From assembly GCF_001548675.1 (NCBI RefSeq), contig NZ_CP010834.1:186001-250000 (forward strand): a stretch of 64,000 nt of DNA, in the 5' to 3' direction. The position numbers and the translations under genes are program-made. The notes beneath the pieces were generated by a model. That model had not been told where the DNA came from, made no database searches, and saw only the letters and a list, made by a program, of their open reading frames with translations. Source of the stretch: Methanobrevibacter sp. YE315. GTDB taxonomy: Archaea; Methanobacteriota; Methanobacteria; Methanobacteriales; Methanobacteriaceae. Below are positions 26,374 to 36,803 of this stretch, one piece after another (the stretch's first letter is position 1; each line of letters opens with the position of its first letter).

Positions 26374-27303
26374 TTATTTGTTGAACGGTTCGCGGTTGTT
26401 GATGCCGGTTATGAAAATCTCTTCCAGTTCATCTTCGCTTGCACCGTTTCTGACATGTGAAATCAATTCAACCAGATTGTCGTTTCTTAGAAGGCATGGT
26501 TTGATTTTACCATCAGGAGTTATCCTTAATCTGGAGCAATTTGCGCAAAAGGTAGAGTTATCAACTGGCTTAACTACCTCGATTTCTCCACCGTCTATGT
26601 AATATTTTTTACGTCCTTGCATAAATTCACGTTCACGCACGTCATCAGCTATATCAGCCAACTCTTTTTCAATGTCATCTAGCTTATAATGATAGTCTGC
26701 GCTGAATTTGTCGTCGTCACAGTTTTCGCTTTCAATAAGTTCGATGAGCTGAAGGACAATGTCGTGCTTTTTGCAGAATTTGAACATCTCATCGATTTCA
26801 TCCTGATTGATGTCCTTCATGATGACCATATTGATTTTAACAGGGTACAGTCCAACTTCAACGGCCTTCAAAATTCCTCTTTTGGCATCTTCAAGATAGT
26901 CCTTTTTTGTGATGAATTCGAATGTTTCGCGGTTGAGGGTATCAAGGCTTACATTTACACGGTCAAGACCAGCATCCTTTAAATCCTGCGCGTATTTTTC
27001 CAAAAGTGTTCCGTTGGTGGTCATGGAAATATCCTTAAAGTCGAGGCTGCTGATTTTTCTCACGGTTTCGACAATATCCTTTTTAAGCAATGGTTCTCCA
27101 CCTGAAAGCCTGATTTTTCTAACACCAATCTTTTTGGCCACTTTACAGATTGTATACACCTCATCAGCGGTCATTTCATCTTTGGATTTGACCATTCCGT
27201 CGTGATGGCAGTATAGACAATTAACATTACATCTGTTTGTCAGTGTGATTCTCAGTGAAAGAATCGGTCTTTCGTATTTATCCTTAACAACATTTTCCAT
27301 CAT
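26374..27303 (-). CDS. moaA: GTP 3',8-cyclase MoaA
   Basis: This 309-residue radical-SAM enzyme makes the first committed intermediate of molybdopterin from GTP. The SAM cluster is C-x3-C-x2-C in [14 protein letters not shown] (about residues 21-34). The C-terminal cluster that binds GTP is C-x2-C-x13-C in [19 protein letters not shown] (about 249-267). The C-terminal GG motif of bacterial MoaA is replaced (protein ends NREPFNK), as often in archaea. The gene follows mobB with a four-base gap, so the two form one operon transcribed away from the fwd cluster. Confidence 0.94.
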
Positions 27304-27307
27304 AGTA

Positions 27308-28342
27308 TCATTCTTCCACTTTGATTGTAATTTTTTTAATCTCTGAGTCGATTTTCAGGGAATTGACAATTGCATAAATTGTCTCTTTCAGGATTCCTTG
27401 GGTAAACTCATTCAGTTTAACGTCATGATTATTGGTTTTAAGCATGATATTTGCATTAGTCAATTCATCTTCAATGTCTGTTATTTCAATGGCTATGGTT
27501 TTAACATCATCTTCGGTCTTGATTGAGTTAACCATTCCTTTAATTGAATTTGCAACAATGGTTTTTGTAAATTCGTTGATTTCAAGGTCCTCATCATTGA
27601 TTAGAATGCTGCATTCTGCATCACTTGGATTTTTCGCTGTTTCATCGTTAGGAATTACCAGCTCTATTTTTCCGATATCTTCAACACCATAGTCTTCGAG
27701 GTTTAGTGTGCTGATTACTCCAATTACGCTCTGTTTTAGATAATCGCTTACAAACCTGTTCATTCCGACTACCTTGCCGTCTATTGACAGATAGCTATGC
27801 ACATTATCCAGATCACCCACACTTAGATTTCCTTGACGAATTTCCTTGGCTATTGCCTCACCATTATTGAATCCGCAGTTCTTTGCAAATAAGGTGTCTA
27901 CAATGTCGTGGCCTCTCTCTTCGATGAGGTCTGCCAGTTCGCTAACGCCTTGCTCATCAATTGTAAATGAATCAACTTCTTTTATTGTGTATTCATCTCT
28001 TACATTAGGGGAGGTAATGATTTTCGGATAGTTGTATTTTTTGTAGCCTTCGACAATTACAAAGTCAAATTCATCCATGTGCTTTATCAAAAATAGTATC
28101 CTGTTCAGATCCATTTCCTGTCGGACATTGAAGAATGTGGTTGATCCGACACCCACTACCAAGTTCGCACCGGCCTGCTTATGTTTCCAGGTATCAGTAT
28201 TTTCTTTATCCATCTCAATTGAGTGGTGCGAATGCTTGATGGAGGCTACGTTATAACCTCTTTTTGTTAACTCTTCAATGATTTTTACTGTCAGTGAAGT
28301 TTTTCCAGTATTTTTTCTCCCGACTATAGAAACTATTTTCAT
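27308..28342 (-). CDS. mobB: molybdopterin-guanine dinucleotide biosynthesis protein MobB with triplicated C-terminal domain
   Basis: The 344-residue product has an N-terminal MobB GTPase-like domain: P-loop [11 protein letters not shown] (about residues 7-17), [19 protein letters not shown] and [14 protein letters not shown]. It is involved in attaching GMP to molybdopterin. Residues about 184-344 are an extension containing three imperfect repeats of roughly 45 residues (R1 184-230, R2 244-287, R3 297-342). Each has the pattern xNxFxxxxLxxxIxGxxxSL then an Ile/Val-rich strand. The extension is absent from E. coli MobB. GGGGATTTG precedes the ATG. The promoter region contains a copy of the TGTGTAGT palindrome at 28402-28418. 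Confidence 0.9.
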
Positions 28343-28401: not shown

Positions 28402-28418
28402 GGTGTTGTCACTACACT
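28402..28418. promoter_or_regulatory. degenerate copy of the fwd-region palindrome
   Basis: GGTGTTGTCACTACACT matches the perfect palindrome TGTGTAGTTACTACACA at 13 of 17 positions. It lies just upstream of the likely mobB TATA box on the reverse strand, exactly 50 bp from the perfect copy, close to five helical turns, which would allow cooperative binding. Confidence 0.55.
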
Positions 28419-28451
28419 CATTTTGGAAATGTCTTATATTCTTTACATTTA

Positions 28452-28468
28452 TGTGTAGTTACTACACA
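28452..28468. promoter_or_regulatory. perfect 17-bp palindromic operator, copy 1
   Basis: TGTGTAGTTACTACACA is an 8-1-8 perfect inverted repeat. The identical 17-mer recurs at 30111-30127. It lies 110 bp upstream of mobB and about 345 bp upstream of the 28813 ferredoxin gene. The nearby HTH-ferredoxin protein (30464) is the obvious candidate to bind it. Confidence 0.75.
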
Positions 28469-28745
28469 TAAAATAACGTTTTTTTATCTGTTTAAATTTC
28501 TTCATTTCTTTCAATACTATGCGTATTTTATGGATTTTATTTTAACTTGAAGCCTTGCTGCCAGTTATTAAAATATAATTTTCATAGGGTATGAATCATG
28601 TCAAATAAATATGTATAAATTTAATTTTTTTAAAAAAATCTTTAAACCTACTTATTTTTAATATAGATTGTGGAAAACTTAAATTAGGTTATCCTAAATC
28701 TTAAAAATCGCCAATTTTTCGAAATTAGGAAAAAATAATCGATAT

Positions 28746-28753
28746 GTTTATAT
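28746..28753 (+). promoter_or_regulatory. TATA box of the ferredoxin-polyferredoxin operon
   Basis: TTTATATG in the context CGATATGTTTATAT, the same 14-mer as at the 16.3-kb promoter. Expected transcription start is about 28777, with a 35-base leader ending in GAGAGGTAGT before the ATG. Confidence 0.6.
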
Positions 28754-28812
28754 GTACAATTCGATAAAAATCTTAATTGGCTTAGCTATAAATATTTTGA
28801 GAGGTAGTAAAT

Positions 28813-29004
28813 ATGGCAGTAAAAATTGATTCAGAAGCTTGTGGACACATTGAAAATTGTCCAGTACAAGGATTATGCGTAAAAATTTGCGAACAAGGAG
28901 CACTTATTGAGGAAAATGGTGATGTGACTATTGTCCCTGAAAAATGTGATGATTGCGATTTATGCATTCAGAATTGTCCAAATCAAGCAATTTCAAAAGC
29001 GTAA
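28813..29004 (+). CDS. small 2[4Fe-4S] ferredoxin with an atypical first cluster motif
   Basis: The 63-residue protein has eight cysteines. The second cluster is ordinary, C45-x2-C48-x2-C51-x3-C55-P. The first is C10-x5-C16-x5-C22-x3-C26, with wider spacing than the C-x2-C-x2-C-x3-C rule. That pattern may change the potential or nuclearity of the cluster. The gene is preceded by GAGAGGTAG and followed 12 bases later by a polyferredoxin gene, so the two are co-transcribed. It probably carries electrons to or from formylmethanofuran dehydrogenase or a partner complex. It could correspond to one of the small iron-sulfur genes of fwd/fmd operons, but I cannot assign the letter. Confidence 0.85.
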   Translation: MAVKIDSEACGHIENCPVQGLCVKICEQGALIEENGDVTIVPEKCDDCDLCIQNCPNQAISKA

Positions 29005-29016
29005 GAGAGGAGTATT

Positions 29017-30033
29017 ATGTTTAATATAGAAAGAGATGGTAGTGAACACAGGGTATTGTCCTACAAAGATCAAAATTGTGTTGGTTGTGGGATCTGTACC
29101 GAAGTCTGTCCAACCGATTCATTGAGATTGGGACCTACCGTACCTATTGCACGAGGATTAATAGAAATGGATTTGGTATCCGTTAATGAAAATTCATGTG
29201 CATTTTGCGGTTTATGTTCTGTAGCATGTCCATTCAATGCCTTAGATTTATCAATTGATGATGTAAACATTAAAGAATTGGATATTTATCCTGAATGGGA
29301 TGTTGAATCAACTGTTGATGATGAAGATTGTATTTACTGTGGCAGATGCTATGAGGTTTGTCCTCAAGATTCAATTATTTTCAAAAGAGAACTTCCTGAA
29401 CGTTCTGCATTAGTAAGAGGAGAAATAAGCATTGATGATGAAAAATGTATCTTCTGTTCATTCTGTGCTGATTTATGTCCTGCAGGAGCTATAACTGTTA
29501 AAAATGTTCCTACAGCAAGCAATGATGTTTTAAATAATTCAATTGAAGTGGATTTATCCAAATGTATTTTCTGCGGAATCTGTAAAAGGGTATGTCCTGA
29601 AAATGCAATCAGAGAAGTCTGTTCAACATGTATGTATGCAGATGATATTGAAGTTCCGGAAGTCACTGGTGAAACATTCATCATTGAAAATTCATGCGTA
29701 AGCTGTTCATGGTGTTCTGAAATTTGTCCTAAAGATGCGATTACAATTACCAAACCATTTGAAGGTACATTAGAACTAAATGAAATTGAAGAAGAGGAAA
29801 AAATCTGTAAAGGCGAATCTTGCCATGCATGTCAGGATGTATGTCCATGTAATGCCGTTGAAATCGTTGACGGAAAAGCATTTACTAATTTGGACTTCTG
29901 TAATTTATGCGGGGCTTGTGTAACTGCATGTCCACAAAATATCAGAGTTGTTTCAAGAACAGCTATGAAATTAAACAATATTAATTCCAGAGCCTGGAGT
30001 GAAATTTTGGATTCACTTCTTGTTGGAAAATAG
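29017..30033 (+). CDS. polyferredoxin, FwdF paralogue, eight [4Fe-4S] sites
   Basis: The 338-residue protein contains seven canonical C-x2-C-x2-C-x3-C-P motifs (for example CVGCGICTEVCP at about residue 20) and one spaced site, C-x4-C-x2-C-x3-C (CKGESCHACQDVCP, about residue 269). That makes eight clusters in total. A lone CSTCMY pair lies in the middle, as in the FwdF encoded at 30915, with which it shares domain order and the ending SRAWSEILDSL. It should be a soluble electron wire. Because a second copy is part of the fwd operon, this one may serve another condition or another electron donor such as formate dehydrogenase. GAGAGGAG precedes the ATG. Confidence 0.9.
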   Translation: MFNIERDGSEHRVLSYKDQNCVGCGICTEVCPTDSLRLGPTVPIARGLIEMDLVSVNENSCAFCGLCSVACPFNALDLSIDDVNIKELDIYPEWDVESTVDDEDCIYCGRCYEVCPQDSIIFKRELPERSALVRGEISIDDEKCIFCSFCADLCPAGAITVKNVPTASNDVLNNSIEVDLSKCIFCGICKRVCPENAIREVCSTCMYADDIEVPEVTGETFIIENSCVSCSWCSEICPKDAITITKPFEGTLELNEIEEEEKICKGESCHACQDVCPCNAVEIVDGKAFTNLDFCNLCGACVTACPQNIRVVSRTAMKLNNINSRAWSEILDSLLVGK

Positions 30034-30110
30034 TATTTCAAGTTCACCAATAATAACTGTCACCATATAACCACTTTTTTTCATTTTTTCGGAAATTTTT
30101 CTCAAATTTA

Positions 30111-30127
30111 TGTGTAGTTACTACACA
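30111..30127. promoter_or_regulatory. perfect 17-bp palindromic operator, copy 2
   Basis: TGTGTAGTTACTACACA, identical to 28452-28468, lies 337 bp upstream of the HTH-ferredoxin start. In copy 1 the distance to the downstream gene is 345 bp, so the two regions have similar geometry. Confidence 0.75.
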
Positions 30128-30434
30128 TTTTAGGTTAACCAAAAAAATAAAACAAATTTTTTGAGATTTTGTAATACTTTTTGACTAAATTCGTATTAAA
30201 AATTTTAAGTAAAATTTTCATTTTTTCAATGATTTAAGATATAAAAATGATTTATTGAATAAAATATTTTTATTTAAGGTTATTTTATTTGATTCAATTA
30301 ATATTTAACATTATTTTTAAAATTAAATAATTTTAATTGATTTTTAAAAAATTTTTTGTGTAGTATTCCCACAGTAGTATATAAATCTTTCTATTTAATT
30401 CTAGTAGGCAACTATATTTATATAAGTAAACATA

Positions 30435-30451
30435 TGTGATATCATTACACA
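30435..30451. promoter_or_regulatory. degenerate palindrome in the HTH-ferredoxin promoter
   Basis: TGTGATATCATTACACA keeps both outer half-site ends (TGTG and TACACA) of the palindrome. It lies ten bases after TATA-like TTTATATAA (30417-30425) and twelve bases before the ATG, covering the expected transcription start. That position suits autorepression. Confidence 0.55.
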
Positions 30452-30463
30452 TTGGTGGTTAAA

Positions 30464-30922
30464 ATGCCGAAACATATTGCATCTGGTCTTAAATATTTGG
30501 CTGCGGTCAAGTTGAAGGATGCTGGGAAAAGTCATCAAGCAATTGCTGACGAGTTGGGCGTTGATAGATCCACAATATCACATTATTTGAATGGCAGAAA
30601 CCTTTCATGGAATTCAATTGATGTTGCAAGGACTATCATTGACTTATCTCCCAGAGATTTCTTAAGAATGACCGAGGCGATATTTGACGAACCAGAACAG
30701 AGTCGAAAAATTGTGAATATTTGCAGAGAAAGAGATTTCGAAGTAATTATAGAAGATTCTTGTATTGGTTGCGGCTTATGTGTAAATGCATGTACAATGA
30801 AAGCTATTGAATTAGAATCATTGAAAGCCCATGCAGACTCCATACAATGTTGTGGTTGTGAGCTATGTAGTGAAGACTGCCCAACAAGTTCTATAAAAAT
30901 TTTGGAGATTGAATATGATTAG
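30464..30922 (+). CDS. HTH-ferredoxin fusion, putative redox/Fe-S-sensing regulator of the fwd operon
   Basis: The 152-residue protein has a Cro/Tfx-like helix-turn-helix at about residues 22-46 (KSHQAIADELGVDRSTISHY). A helical linker follows, then two [4Fe-4S] ferredoxin motifs: C101-x2-C104-x2-C107-x3-C111 and C130-x2-C133-x2-C136-x3-C140-P. Such a fusion is expected to change DNA binding when its clusters are oxidised, reduced or lost. ATG 30464 is chosen because GGTGGTT precedes it. The FwdF gene starts inside its last codons (eight-base overlap), so regulator and fwd subunits are translated from one message. It is distinct from Tfx of Methanothermobacter, which has no ferredoxin part as far as I recall. 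Its binding target is inferred to be the nearby palindromes. Confidence 0.8.
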   Translation: MPKHIASGLKYLAAVKLKDAGKSHQAIADELGVDRSTISHYLNGRNLSWNSIDVARTIIDLSPRDFLRMTEAIFDEPEQSRKIVNICRERDFEVIIEDSCIGCGLCVNACTMKAIELESLKAHADSIQCCGCELCSEDCPTSSIKILEIEYD

Positions 30923-32012
30923 AAATTTAAAAGAGGTTCAAGACAACAACTTTGACATCACAAGAGATGCTGAAGAAGTTAGAAAATTGTCTTTCAATGA
31001 CCCTACTTGTTTAGGTTGTGGGATTTGTGAATCAACTTGTCCTGTCGAAGCAATTACCTTAAACGCAATTGCTGTAGACGCACGTCACAGAATCTCAAAC
31101 GACATCTACTTCAGTGGTCATGAAAAGATTGCTCAAAACTTCAAAGACGAATTTGATGTTCAAAGAGTAAGCATTGACGAAAGTAAATGTGTATTATGTG
31201 GTATGTGCAGTGGTTTATGTCCTGTTGATGCGTTAGTATTAACTATTGACGGCGTACCAATCAAAGAAATTGAAGCATATCCTCATTATAACGCTTTCTC
31301 AGAAATTGATGATGATGAATGTATTTACTGTAAAAGATGTGAAATCGCATGTCCTCGTGATGCAATTGTCATTGAAAGAATTTTACCAGACCGTGCTGAT
31401 TTAGTGACTGGTGAAATCGAAGTAGATGATAATGAATGTATTTACTGTGGCATTTGTGAAGAATTATGTCCTGCAGAAGCAATCGTCGTGGACAAAGAAA
31501 CCGGAGAAGAATCTATTGTCATTGACAAAGATAAATGTGTATACTGTTTAGTATGTAAAAAATCCTGTCCTACTAACGCTATTAAAGCACTTTGTAGAGC
31601 ATGCAGTTATGGTGAATATGATTTAGATCCTGCTAAAGCTGTCGTAACTGGAAACTCTGTAATTGACTCAAGTCTCTGCGTATTCTGTGGATGGTGTGAA
31701 GGAGTTTGTCCAACCGATGCAGCTAAACACAAAAAACCATTTGAAGGTTCTATTGAAATCGATGACGAAAAATGTCAAGCTTGTGGAGCTTGTGTAGATA
31801 TTTGTGGATGTAACGCTTTAGCATTCCCTGTATCTTCTGGTCCTGGTTCAAGAATGGAACACGTTATTGCAAACAGCGATTACTGTGTAAAATGTAAAGC
31901 ATGTGCAAAAGCATGTCCTAACGGAGCTATTACCGTAACAAGAACTGAAGTTGACCACACTCCTATTAACTCCGCTACTTGGAAAGAAGCTTTAGACGCT
32001 ATTAAAGACTAG
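30915..32012 (+). CDS. fwdF: formylmethanofuran dehydrogenase polyferredoxin subunit FwdF
   Basis: The protein of about 365 residues has eight C-x2-C-x2-C-x3-C sites in four ferredoxin-like pairs, from CLGCGICESTCP to CVKCKACAKACP. In the Methanothermobacter wolfeii enzyme, FwdF clusters form a long wire joining two catalytic halves. The seventh site ends CG instead of CP. The start is ATG 30915 (GGAGATTG upstream); the in-frame TTG at 30909 is unlikely. It overlaps the HTH-ferredoxin gene and precedes fwdG by eight bases. The operon order here is F-G-D-B-A-C, unlike the H-F-G-D-A-C-B order I recall for Methanothermobacter. Confidence 0.93.
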   Translation: MIRNLKEVQDNNFDITRDAEEVRKLSFNDPTCLGCGICESTCPVEAITLNAIAVDARHRISNDIYFSGHEKIAQNFKDEFDVQRVSIDESKCVLCGMCSGLCPVDALVLTIDGVPIKEIEAYPHYNAFSEIDDDECIYCKRCEIACPRDAIVIERILPDRADLVTGEIEVDDNECIYCGICEELCPAEAIVVDKETGEESIVIDKDKCVYCLVCKKSCPTNAIKALCRACSYGEYDLDPAKAVVTGNSVIDSSLCVFCGWCEGVCPTDAAKHKKPFEGSIEIDDEKCQACGACVDICGCNALAFPVSSGPGSRMEHVIANSDYCVKCKACAKACPNGAITVTRTEVDHTPINSATWKEALDAIKD

Positions 32013-32020
32013 GTGATTGG

Positions 32021-32251
32021 ATGGAACTTAAAGTTAATCAAGATAATTGTTTAGGATGCGGGATTTGTGTAATCGCATGTCCTGTTAATGCAGCTATCAG
32101 TCCTGAAAATGCTGGTGGTAATGGTGCAAAGACTGAAGAAGTTATTATGATGGTAGAAAACGGATTTATCAAACTTTTCAGTCCGGAAAAATGTGAAAAA
32201 TGTGGAACATGCCAAATGTTCTGCCCAGTAAATGCTATATGGTTAGAATAG
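32021..32251 (+). CDS. fwdG: formylmethanofuran dehydrogenase ferredoxin subunit FwdG
   Basis: This 76-residue 2[4Fe-4S] ferredoxin has the sites CLGCGICVIACP (about residues 10-21) and CEKCGTCQMFCP (about 58-69). The loop of about 36 residues between the sites (AGGNGAKTEEVIMM region) is longer than in bacterial ferredoxins, as in other FwdG proteins. It links the tungsten site of FwdBD to the FwdF wire. GGTGATTGG precedes the ATG, and fwdD starts 12 bases downstream. Confidence 0.92.
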   Translation: MELKVNQDNCLGCGICVIACPVNAAISPENAGGNGAKTEEVIMMVENGFIKLFSPEKCEKCGTCQMFCPVNAIWLE

Positions 32252-32263
32252 GGGGATTACAAT

Positions 32264-32833
32264 ATGCATTATGCTAATACTTATTTAGAAAAACCTGTAG
32301 TACCTGATGTAAAAATCACTGGTGAAGGAACAACCGATGTTCTCAAATGTATGTTAAACACCGGATCTGACATCTATCAAGGTGCTTGTAAAAAAAGAGG
32401 ATCCACCTTAAAAGAAGAATACAAAAACGCTTCAGGTACTTGTTACATGGATCCTAGAGACATGGCAAAATTAGGTGTAAACAACTGGGATACCGTACTT
32501 GTTAAAACCGATTTCGGTGAAGTAGTAGTAAACTGTGCTGTATCAAGAGACGCACCTCACGAAGGAACAGTATTCATTTGTAAAGGTCCATGGGCTAACA
32601 CTATCGTAAGCCACGATACCTACTGCTGCTCTGACCCTACTTACAAAGGTATTAGATGTACTGTTGAAAAAACTGATAGAAAAGTATTACTCATGGCTGA
32701 CTTAATGAGATGGGTATACAAAAAATACGTTGATGAAGAAGATGACGATGTTGTTGAAAACATGGAATCTTTAGGTGAATTGCCTGTTTATCACGGACGT
32801 AAATGGGAGGAGTTGATTGACCATGACTTATGA
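32264..32833 (+). CDS. fwdD: formylmethanofuran dehydrogenase subunit FwdD
   Basis: The 189-residue subunit is the molybdopterin-dinucleotide-binding domain that closes over the active site of FwdB. The core [22 protein letters not shown] is the usual cap-domain pattern found at the C-terminus of fused enzymes such as FdhA. It has an extra Cys-rich part ([17 protein letters not shown]) and a charged C-terminal tail, making it somewhat longer than the roughly 130-residue form I associate with the family. The fwdB start overlaps its end by eleven bases. Confidence 0.92.
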
Positions 32834-34199
32834 ACCACCTGTAACTGATTATGATTACATTGTTGAAAACTGTACCTGTGCATTCTGTGGTTGTAACTGT
32901 GACGACTTAGACTACTTAGTCAAAAACGGTCATGTAGTTGCTGTAAGACACGCATGCAGATTAGGTGCAAGTAAAATTATGGAAGATATGGATCAAAGAT
33001 TAATTGTTCCAATGATTAGGGATGAAAACGGAGAACTCAAAGAAGTTGACTGGGATACCGCTTTAGACAAAGCTGCTGAATACATTGCTAATTCCATCAG
33101 ACCAGTATTCTACGGTTGGTCAGAAACTTCTACTGAATGTATGAAAGAAGGAGTAGCATTAGGTGAATACATCGGTGCAGTATTAGACAACCAAGCTACT
33201 ATCTGTCACGGTCCTTCTCTCCAAGCTGTACAAAACGCAGGTTACCCTATTCAAACCTTAGGAGAAGTTCAAAACAGAGCTGACGTTATTGCATACTCTG
33301 GAAGTAACGCTATGAACTCTCACCCAAGACACATGGCAAGATACGCTGTATTCTGCCGTGGATACTTCAGACAAAGAGGAAGATTCGACAGAACCGTTAT
33401 TACCATGGATCCAAAATTCTCAGACACTGCAAGATGTTCTGACAAATGGATTGGATTCGAACAAAACGGTGACTACGGTTTCTACAACGCTATTAGAGCT
33501 GTATTAAGAGGAAAAGAATTATACCAAGACGTAATTTCTGGAATTCCTAAAGAAGACATTTACGAATTAGCAGAAGAAATGAAAAACGCTGAATTCGGTG
33601 TTCTCTTCTTCGGTTTAGGTTTAACCCACACATTATCAAAACAAAGAAACATTGATATTGCAATTAAAATGGTACAAGACTTAAACAAATACAGTAAATG
33701 GGGTCTTACTCCAATGAGAGGTCACTTCAACGTAAACGGTTTCAACATTTTCATGGCATTCGAATGTGGATTTGCATTTGGTGTTGACTATGCAAGAGGT
33801 TACCCAAGATATATGATGGGTGAAACCAACACTATCGATTTATTAGTAAGGAAAGAACCAGACTGTTTCATGGTTATTGCAGCTGACCCTGGTGCTCACT
33901 TCCCTAACGGAGCAAACCAACACTTAGCTAACATTCCTGTTATTCAAATCGATATCCACTGGGGTCCATCTACCGAACTTGCTGACGTAGTATTGCCAGG
34001 TTCATTCATCGGTGTAGAATGTGCCGGTACCAGTTATCGTATGGATGGAGTTCCTATCTACATGAAGAAAGCTATCGACAAACCAGAAACCTGTCGTGAC
34101 GACGAATGGATTGTCCGTGAATTGAAAGAAAGAGTAATGAAACTCAGAGAAGAGCCAAACGTAGCTCCAAAATATGTGCCAAATCCAAACGCACTCTAA
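32823..34199 (+). CDS. fwdB: formylmethanofuran dehydrogenase catalytic subunit FwdB
   Basis: This 458-residue Mo/W-bisPGD subunit reduces CO2 to formate inside the Fwd complex. The N-terminal [4Fe-4S] site is [10 protein letters not shown] with a later Cys (RHACRLG). The metal ligand is C128 in [12 protein letters not shown], so this is the Cys form, not the selenocysteine form. Pterin-binding segments include [20 protein letters not shown] and [17 protein letters not shown] 32823 follows GGAGGAGTTGATTG. Whether the metal is tungsten or molybdenum cannot be read from sequence, so fwdB rather than fmdB is a convention here. It is followed by fwdA. Confidence 0.93.
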
Positions 34200-34209
34200 A
34201 GGTGATATA

Positions 34210-35925
34210 ATGGAATATATTCTTAAAAATGGTATTGTCTACGACCCAGCTAATGAAGTCAATGGGGAAAAGATGGACGTAATGTTCAAAGACGGTATTA
34301 TTGTAGATGATGTTTCTGCAGATGCTGAAGTATTAGACGTTACCGATAAAATAGTCATGCCAGCAGGTATTGACCCTCACGCACACGTTGCAGGTCCTAA
34401 ATTAGTAGTAGGAAGATTATACAGACCTGAAGATTCCAGAAGAGGTGTTACTCAAAAGACCAAAGTATTAAGGTCTGAATCTGGTTTCTCCATCCCAAGT
34501 TGTCCTGCAACTGGTTACAGATACTCAAGATTAGGTTACGGTACTGTTGTAGAAGCAGCTATGCCTCCTCTTGAAGCAAAACACACTCACGAAGAAATTG
34601 CAACTATTCCAATGATTGATATTCCAGCTATGCCGTTATTCGGTAACAACTGGTTTGTAATGGAATACGCAAAAGATAACAATATTGAAGACATTGCAGC
34701 ATTTGTATCTGCATGGTTAAAAATCTCAAAAGGTTACGGAATTAAAATCGTAAACCCATGTGGAAGTGAAGCATGGGGATGGGGTATGAACGTACACGGT
34801 GTAAATGATAAAGCACCATACTTTGACGTAACTTCCAAAGAAGTCGTTATCGCTTTAGCAAAAGCTAACGAAATGTTGAACTTACCTCACTCTATTCACA
34901 TTCACCCTAACGATTTAGGACACCCTGGTAACTACACTACCACTCTCGAAACCATGGATGCTGTTAAAGATGTTAAAAAAGGTTCCAAAGCAGCTGAAAT
35001 AAGAGACCAAGTTATGCACGTTTGTCACTTACAATTCCACGCATACACTGGTAACAGCTGGAAAGACGCAGGATCTGCAGCACCAGAACTCGCTGATTAC
35101 ATTAACAAAAACAAACATGTAACCTGTGACGTAGGTCAAGTAACCTTAGATGAAACCACAACCATGACTGCAGATGCTCCAATGGAATACGACTTATTCA
35201 AATTATCCGGTCTCAAATGGACCAACAAAGATATTGAATGTGAAACCGCAGCAGGTATCATTCCATGTATTTACTCAGGTAAAAACCCAGTTAACACATT
35301 ACAATGGGCTATCGGTCTTGAATTGTTCTTAGGCATTGAAAACCCATGGCAAGTATGTTTAACTACTGACCACCCTAACGCAGGACCATACACTAGATAT
35401 CCTAGAATCATCTCCTGGTTGATGAGTAACCAAAGAAGGATGGAAATGATGGAAAACGGAGAAGTCCACAAATGGGCACAAAGAAGAACTACTCTCCCAA
35501 CTCTCGACAGAGAATACGATTTCTACGAAATTGCAACTATTTCCAGAGCTGCTCCTGCTAGAATCTACGGATTCACTGACAGAGGTGCACTCACCCCTGG
35601 TTACAGAGCAGACATTGCAGTATATGACATAAATCCTAATGAAATTGATCCATCCAGACAAGCTGCTGAAATCGAAAAAGGTTTCAATGTTGCTGAATAC
35701 ACTATTAAAGATGGTCAAATCTTAGTGAAAGATAAAGAAATCGTAAAAGTTAAAGAAAGTCAAAACATTTGGGTTAACGTAAAAGGATGGGAACAAAACG
35801 AACAAAAAGTTATCAACAACATCATGCCGTTCTTTACTCAATACTACTCAGTTAAATGGGAAAATTACCCAGTACACGACCACTACGTATCTAACCCAAT
35901 TAGAATAGATGTTGATGGTAAATAG
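34210..35925 (+). CDS. fwdA: formylmethanofuran dehydrogenase subunit FwdA
   Basis: This 571-residue amidohydrolase-fold subunit joins formate and methanofuran to give formylmethanofuran. Metal ligands are visible in [13 protein letters not shown] (about residues 55-67), [15 protein letters not shown] and [10 protein letters not shown]; a Lys in [13 protein letters not shown] is the likely carboxylated bridge. The C-terminal [16 protein letters not shown] is the closing beta-sandwich. The start is ATG 34210 after GGTGATAT. Length and motifs are as expected for the intact enzyme. fwdC begins 11 bases after the stop. Confidence 0.95.
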
Positions 35926-35936
35926 GGGTGTTTAAT

Positions 35937-36803
35937 TTGAAAACTATAACTTTTGATCAAATAAAAACTTCTTCAATCGCTTTAGAATTTGATGAATTAA
36001 TTCCTGATGAAATTTATTCATGGACTGAAGCAGATTTTGCAAAATATCAAGTTCCTATCGGAAACTCCAGATTCCCAATTACAGATTTCTTCGACATTAC
36101 TGTAGTAGGAGAAGCTAATGGACCTGATGACGTTGAAATGATTCTCAACGGTGATTTAAACAGAGTTAAATACATCGGTTGTAAAATGAGCGGCGGTAAA
36201 ATTTTATGTAACAGCAGTGTAGATTTACACGTTGGTGCAGAAATGTCTGGCGGTTCTATCCTTGTTAAAGGTGATGCAGCTGCTCACGCTGGAAGAGAAA
36301 TGTCCGGTGGATACCTTGAAATTGAAGGAAATACCAAAGAATTCACTGGTGCTTCTTACATTGGTGAATGGAGAGGTATGACCGGTGGAGAAATTGTTGT
36401 CGGCGGTAACGCAGGTAAACAATGTGGTGAATGTTTAACCGGTGGTAAAATCCACGTTAAAGGTAACTGTGATATCTTAGCTGGTATTCACATGACTAAA
36501 GGTATCATTGAAATCGACGGTGACGTAAACCGTTGGCCTGGTGGACAAATGAAAAACGGTAACATCATTATCCACGGATTCCTTGGAAGATTACTCGAAG
36601 GATTCGTTCTCGACGGTATTGTTGTAGATCCTGAAGTAGACGGTATCACTTTCGAAGGTAAATATATTAAATATACTGGAGATATTGGTCTTAACGGTAA
36701 AGGTAACCTTTACTTAGGTGCTGAAGCTAACAAAGAAAAATTAGCTGAATATGGCGAATTAGACGACGAATATACTTCAATCAGAGAATACAGGAATTTA
36801 TAA
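35937..36803 (+). CDS. fwdC: formylmethanofuran dehydrogenase subunit FwdC
   Basis: The 288-residue protein is built of repeated Gly-rich turns ([45 protein letters not shown]), the right-handed beta-helix shared with the C-terminal domain of glutamate synthase. It scaffolds FwdA and FwdB. The start is taken at TTG 35937, six bases after AGGGGTG; the in-frame GTG at 35928 belongs to that ribosome-binding site. It is the last fwd gene. Convergent T-rich sequence at 36815-36830 probably ends the transcript. Confidence 0.93.

Follow-up and report, generated by a model that had tools for sequence, protein, structure and literature searches.

Hydrogenotrophic methanogenesis, also that of rumen and gut methanogens, starts with the reduction of CO2 by formylmethanofuran dehydrogenase. 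The tungsten form of the enzyme in Methanothermobacter is listed with an operon, fwdHFGDACB, in which fwdH is the gene in front of fwdF, and is described as formed constitutively (PMC3087415). FwdH has the same position before fwdF in the locus studied here, and in Methanothermobacter it is counted with the enzyme (PMC3087415). A literature search found neither a dedicated regulator of the tungsten fwd operon nor a regulator role for FwdH; it did not reach the original papers of 1996 and 1999, which may hold an earlier mention of a helix-turn-helix (HTH) in FwdH.

Tfx is reported to be a DNA-binding protein encoded in front of fmdECB that binds near the promoter (PMC3087415, citing Hochheimer 1999). 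Like FwdH, it has its gene beside an operon for formylmethanofuran dehydrogenase; unlike FwdH, it acts on the operon of the molybdenum enzyme, fmdECB. FwdH had no match to the Tfx family in Pfam or among the 25 best NCBIfam results. To our knowledge, Tfx has no ferredoxin domain.

Bacterial Fe-S autoregulators such as IscR and SufR are winged-helix proteins with three or four cysteines. FwdH is like them in joining a DNA-binding domain to an Fe-S cluster, with an operator (in FwdH a putative one) in its own promoter and an Fe-S-rich operon, and differs in its DNA-binding fold and in carrying a complete two-cluster ferredoxin domain. With XRE/Cro-like multi-operator repressors (lambda CI, C.Esp1396I), FwdH shares matches to HTH_3/HTH_31 and palindromic operators around the core promoter. 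It differs from these in its archaeal TATA/BRE promoter, its ferredoxin sensor domain, and the lack of a significant structural match.

Palindromic sites around fwdH and mobB-moaA

The window is the whole stretch of DNA that was analysed, 64,000 nucleotides of the Methanobrevibacter sp. YE315 genome. In it, the minus-strand genes mobB (27308-28342; PF03205 and TIGR00176 above cut-off) and moaA, for GTP 3',8-cyclase (26374-27303; NCBIfam PRK00164/TIGR02668 above cut-off), lie opposite a plus-strand series of fd63, fwdF2, fwdH, fwdF, fwdG, fwdD, fwdB, fwdA, and fwdC. The gene fwdH (30464-30922, plus strand), which encodes an HTH protein with two [4Fe-4S] clusters, overlaps at its end with the next gene of the operon, fwdF, for a polyferredoxin (30915-32012, plus strand; NF042909 above cut-off). 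The genes fwdG, fwdD, fwdB, fwdA, and fwdC follow (32021-36803, plus strand), with FwdB assigned by TIGR03129 above cut-off, and FwdD and the others by similarity and order. The ferredoxin gene fd63 and polyferredoxin gene fwdF2 (28813-30033, plus strand) form an insertion that separates mobB from the control region of fwdH. This insertion occurs in a subset of close relatives only; other relatives are without the pair, in an otherwise identical gene order.

The 17-bp palindrome TGTGTAGTTACTACACA has exactly two perfect copies, at 28452-28468 and 30111-30127, in the whole 2.27-Mb single-contig genome, as the first-pass annotation had it for its own stretch. A genome pattern search for TGTGTANNNNNTACACA with no mismatches likewise returned these two places and no others. 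With up to three mismatches, 0.13 matches are expected by chance in the window, and none of 100 shuffles reached four.

Both perfect copies had been placed about 340 bp ahead of the plus-strand start that follows. This distance means different things for the two. The copy at 30111-30127 (S1) lies at -353 from the fwdH ATG and is the conserved site of this gene, found at about -352 throughout the home genus. The copy at 28452-28468, which is at -361 of the fd63 ORF, is also 126 bp 5' of mobB, on the opposite strand, and is paired with a degenerate operator at -76 of mobB (28402-28418, 13 of 17 matches), the conserved mobB-proximal position. That degenerate copy was borne out by the sequence, as was the one at 30435-30451 (S3, TGTGATATCATTACACA), which is conserved and lies at -29 of fwdH. 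The site at 30357-30373 (S2) had been reported as a half-site; the site is real and more than half, with TGTGTAGTATTCCCACA forming a full degenerate operator where relatives have well-formed ones. S2 is at -107 here and at -104 to -109 in 110 regions from four families. The TATA box of promoter P1 (30378-30384, plus strand) begins 4 bp after S2, and a second TATA-like box, of the putative promoter P2, is at 30417-30423 (plus strand). The suggestion that the long distance from the perfect copies reflects an unannotated transcript gained no support, as an Rfam scan of 26-33 kb gave no match and no leader RNA family.

An inverted repeat, GTAATACT-N-AGTATTAC, is located 3' of S1 at 30172-30200; it is conserved in many relatives and degenerate in the window.

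The probable operator array upstream of fwdH

The palindrome, with at most two mismatches, is present in 106 of 139 family genomes. Of 30 loci fetched from the family search, 26 show the fwdH gene neighbourhood directly, and locus L039, cut at a contig end, has the same site pair. Conservation upstream of the orthologous genes is complete: all 97 of the 97 distinct fwdH upstream regions carry sites at fixed positions (244 sites, vs 6.4 on average in shuffles). These sites persist while the flanking sequence diverges. Relative to the fwdH start, S3 is near -28, S2 near -105, and S1 near -352.

S1 occurs near -352 in the home genus and several other genera, and is absent from several genera and from the other families. 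In genus g9, a pair of S1 sites is located at about -385 and -410. S1 keeps its place, about -352 to -362 of fwdH, even where mobB is 1.1-3.5 kb off (L186, L177), which indicates that S1 belongs to fwdH. Families f2 and f3 retain S2 and S3, and the outermost family, f4, has both in clearly degenerate form; some genomes have only a weak S3. The operator of f3 has drifted to TGTGTG...CACACA, with little change in the recognition helix of FwdH, and S3 is TGTGTGATTAACACACA in most f3 genomes.

The S2-S3 spacing is 77-78 bp in 74 of the 78 regions in which both sites are above threshold. In 94 of the 110 regions from the four families, S2 is followed by an exact TATATA that starts 2 or 4 bp behind it; S2 thus sits where the BRE of an archaeal promoter is expected. 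The second TATA-like box is near -47; most regions have a match of the TTTATAT type between -43 and -51. The end of S3 immediately precedes the Shine-Dalgarno site. The palindrome is almost certainly a cis-regulatory element and very probably acts as a DNA operator. We regard it as a genuine DNA switch, conserved over great evolutionary distances, at the genes with which methane formation begins.

Phasing between S1 and S2 was examined within the home genus, in 48 distinct genomes and with a fwdH gene tree, using search ranges that allowed distances of 216-332 bp. The distance is 244-248 bp in 44 of the 48 and 256-257 bp in the other four, with none between. Of the four changes that these four cases require on the fwdH gene tree, at least three are imposed by branches with good support. 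The added bases seem to be at different places, at least in L089 (against L088) and in L079. The standard deviation is 0.75 bp over 246 bp, as against 6.1 bp for the adjacent mobB-S1 spacer of ~62 bp in the same genomes. Two preferred distances one helical turn apart, with nothing between, favor DNA looping, since a loop would tolerate a step of that size. In genus g9, the S1 pair is 281 and 305 bp from S2, out of phase with 246 bp, and so the spacing amounts to support for looping rather than proof. The looping suggested in the first-pass annotation is thus plausible and has gained support from this constraint; we consider the case for a loop between S1 and the promoter sites, judged from spacing, to be evenly balanced. 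Loop-based control with phased operators would be unusual for an archaeal metabolic operon.

A block of sequence in genus g9, TTCGATATAAA...TTACATATTGGAGATATAATT, is strongly conserved (L026-L040) about 40-60 bp 3' of the S1 pair. It is possibly another promoter or operator.

FwdH as candidate regulator

The gene at 30464 is immediately 5' of fwdF and fwdG/fwdD in the window and in L254-L266. We named its product FwdH because of this gene order and because full-length orthologs (E about 1e-74) occur in f2 and f3. The gene order in f3 is fwdH-fwdF-fwdG-fwdD, and from gene order we infer that the family with FwdH orthologs is that of Methanothermobacter. FwdH was found in 99 of 139 genomes and 14 of 17 genera, in single copy in nearly all carriers, and fwdH is directly 3' of its own sites in every genome that has the gene.

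The N-terminal part of FwdH matches the Pfam families HTH_3 (24.8 bits vs a cut-off of 23) and HTH_31 (27 vs 27). Its recognition helix, R-S-T-x-S-H-Y-L-x-G-x-N, is nearly invariant among 23 sequences from four families. Eight invariant cysteines would hold two [4Fe-4S] clusters, and Fer4 is above cut-off. The AF2 model of FwdH has a pLDDT of 92. The PDB chain search gave matches to the ferredoxin domain only, none at full length, and a fold search with the whole protein likewise gave ferredoxin matches only. In a fold search with the HTH domain, the best natural matches were C.Esp1396I and others at E 0.5-1, which is not significant.

Three of 17 genera, g12, g14, and g16, lack FwdH, and precisely these three also lack MoaA (PF06463). 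Genus g12 is presumably Methanosphaera, which we take to be unable to make molybdopterin. Of its 20 genomes (G107-G126), 19 retain FwdB and none has FwdH. The palindrome pattern has four matches in this genus, as against 13 for the control, and all four are in coding sequence. Regulator and operator have thus been lost together, and with cofactor synthesis rather than with the enzyme. Genus g12 is in itself a case of fwd genes without molybdopterin synthesis.

The nearly invariant recognition helix, the position next to the sites, and the joint loss in g12 leave the 30464 protein as the best candidate binder, in line with the first-pass proposal, and we hold it quite probable that FwdH binds the palindrome. 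FwdH is most likely an overlooked Fe-S DNA-binding protein that is usually listed as an enzyme subunit. The likely reading is that the palindrome is its operator and that it acts as an Fe-S autoregulator on the fwd operon and, where this is the divergent neighbour, also regulates mobB-moaA. Counting against this reading are the HTH domain's lack of a significant structural match, the weak S3 of some genomes, the absence of S1 from several genera and the other families, the g9 distances, and the operator drift in f3 alongside a little-changed helix. In the predicted mechanism, a FwdH dimer would read TGTGTA-N5-TACACA. S2 would touch the BRE/TATA of P1 and S3 would cover the start region or leader before the ATG, so that FwdH would control fwdH-F-G-D-B-A-C. 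Dimers on S2 and S3 would repress or tune P1 and P2, mainly by repression. Where S1 is present, protein bound there would probably contact S2 (and S3) by looping and so strengthen control, and the sites at 28402 and 28452 would place mobB-moaA under FwdH wherever mobB is the adjacent, divergent gene. The Fe-S clusters would most likely report iron-sulfur or redox status, and synthesis of the cluster-rich, W/Mo-pterin-dependent Fwd enzyme could thereby be matched to supply. We give such Fe-S sensing by FwdH about even odds. Reading this gene as one for a regulator, rather than for the enzyme subunit it is listed as, supplies a specific protein, an operator consensus, positions, and a phasing prediction.

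It is unlikely that the sites are operators of some other factor encoded elsewhere, for instance a W/Mo or redox sensor, with FwdH a co-regulated electron-transfer subunit. The PDB and fold searches, which match the ferredoxin domain of FwdH only, fit such a subunit, and FwdH as binder is our deduction; against this, the HTH of FwdH has kept its recognition helix nearly unchanged, and the protein is encoded beside the sites in every genome and disappears with them in g12. The HTH, the adjacency, and the co-loss make autoregulation by FwdH the simplest reading. Far less probable is that the palindromes are RNA hairpins in a leader, exerting translational control through S3 at the Shine-Dalgarno site. 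S3 is immediately 5' of the ribosome-binding site and could form a short hairpin, but S1 and S2 are upstream of the TATA boxes and so outside the same transcript, the mobB sites are upstream of the mobB promoter region, and Rfam had no match.

Extent of the proposed regulon and adjoining elements

The genome was scanned with mismatch-tolerant pattern searches, with the reversed pattern as control. Beyond the two perfect copies, the full palindrome has no further copy at 0-1 mismatch. At up to three mismatches there are 10 places genome-wide, vs 16 for the reversed pattern; there is thus no excess of unrelated copies, the enrichment is local, and the palindrome does not mark a broad regulon. 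The genomic matches with two or three mismatches that were examined are within coding sequences, save one 5' of hdrA; the near-site at 431228 is in a short inter-ORF gap. Apart from the sites at fwdH, mobB, and hdrA, none with a regulatory appearance came to light. A pair of near-sites at 579346 and 581129, considered as a second locus, was rejected as both are within coding sequence (581129 in an adhesin-like gene). The near-sites TTTGTAGTAACTGCACA and TGTGAAGTnACTACACT, which recur in relatives, proved to be codons of conserved proteins, and TGTGTACTCATTCCACA, which recurs in f3, is within coding sequence.

Among 68 distinct regions upstream of mobB, 52 have a strong site, in most cases between -75 and -85 of the mobB start, and the proximal site is at -76 in most of the distinct regions that have a site. 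Where mobB is codirectional or relocated, there is no site upstream. In the fd63-fwdF2 clade, two mobB sites are exactly 50 bp apart (-126 and -76 in the window; also L155, L161, L164, L171, L150, and L184). That mobB keeps both sites though far from fwdH speaks for a separate control of mobB-moaA in these genomes.

The hdrA upstream region in the home genus contains TGTGTnnnnACTACATA/T in 28 of 30 regions scanned, about 55-100 bp 5' of the gene and beside a TATA-like box, and one more of the 30 has a form with three mismatches. The hdrA site in L012:4770 (genome 88769) is the operator-like TGTGTATTTACTACATT, and in one distant genus the equivalent position is taken by TGTGTTAGTGATACACC. Sites of this type are absent in f2-f4 and in several genera of the family. 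Solved complexes in the PDB search contain both HdrA and Fwd, as an electron-bifurcating system; since HdrA works in complex with Fwd, hdrA is a sensible, though weaker, candidate target. It may be a weak, lineage-specific extra target.

The proposed regulon linking molybdopterin synthesis to fwd therefore stands in part: mobB-moaA and fwd share the palindrome, mobB only as a divergent neighbour. Its extension to a broad Mo/W-pterin regulon (fwd, fmd, fdh, moa/mob) could appeal to the operator common to mobB-moaA and fwd, but is very improbable and already largely refuted, since the genome-wide searches gave no excess and no sites at other Mo/W genes, with hdrA as the sole further candidate. 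The conserved core would be autoregulation of fwdH-fwd. A neutral repeat, or a remnant of a duplication or mobile element, might be read from the perfect copies that flank the inserted fd63-fwdF2 pair, but is refuted by the fixed positions in all 97 fwdH upstream regions, which are the same without the insertion and class-wide, in diverged flanks.

S1 is adjoined by a TTTAGG-N4-CCTAAA-like box (30129-30144), whose half-sites agree with the DtxR/IdeR consensus given in PMC7762939. With up to two mismatches, this box is beside S1 in 65 of 94 upstream regions, vs 0.6 expected. The form TTAGG-N4-CCTAA occurs in 20 boxes genome-wide, vs four for the control; three are 5' of feoB, and others are near cbiM and transporter genes. 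A metal-responsive repressor probably shares control of the fwd locus, to judge from these boxes. We put forward only tentatively, and with some doubt, the full combination of an Fe-S-sensing archaeal FwdH, a helically phased S1-S2/S3 loop, a first step of methanogenesis tied to Fe-S and molybdopterin supply, and a DtxR-type metal box in the distal element.

The box TTAGGTTATCCTAA (28684-28697), 5' of fd63-fwdF2, is kept in nine of 10 relatives with fd63. The gene fwdF2 encodes a second FwdF-type polyferredoxin, and the fd63-fwdF2 pair has a conserved TATA (ATGTTTATATGTACA) and the TTAGG box. The set of TTAGG-N4-CCTAA boxes resembles a metal regulon of DtxR type, with fd63-fwdF2 among its members. 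One genus that lacks FwdH has TGTGTAGGTAATACACA about 100 bp 5' of a ferredoxin ORF (L149, G137:C6:16375).
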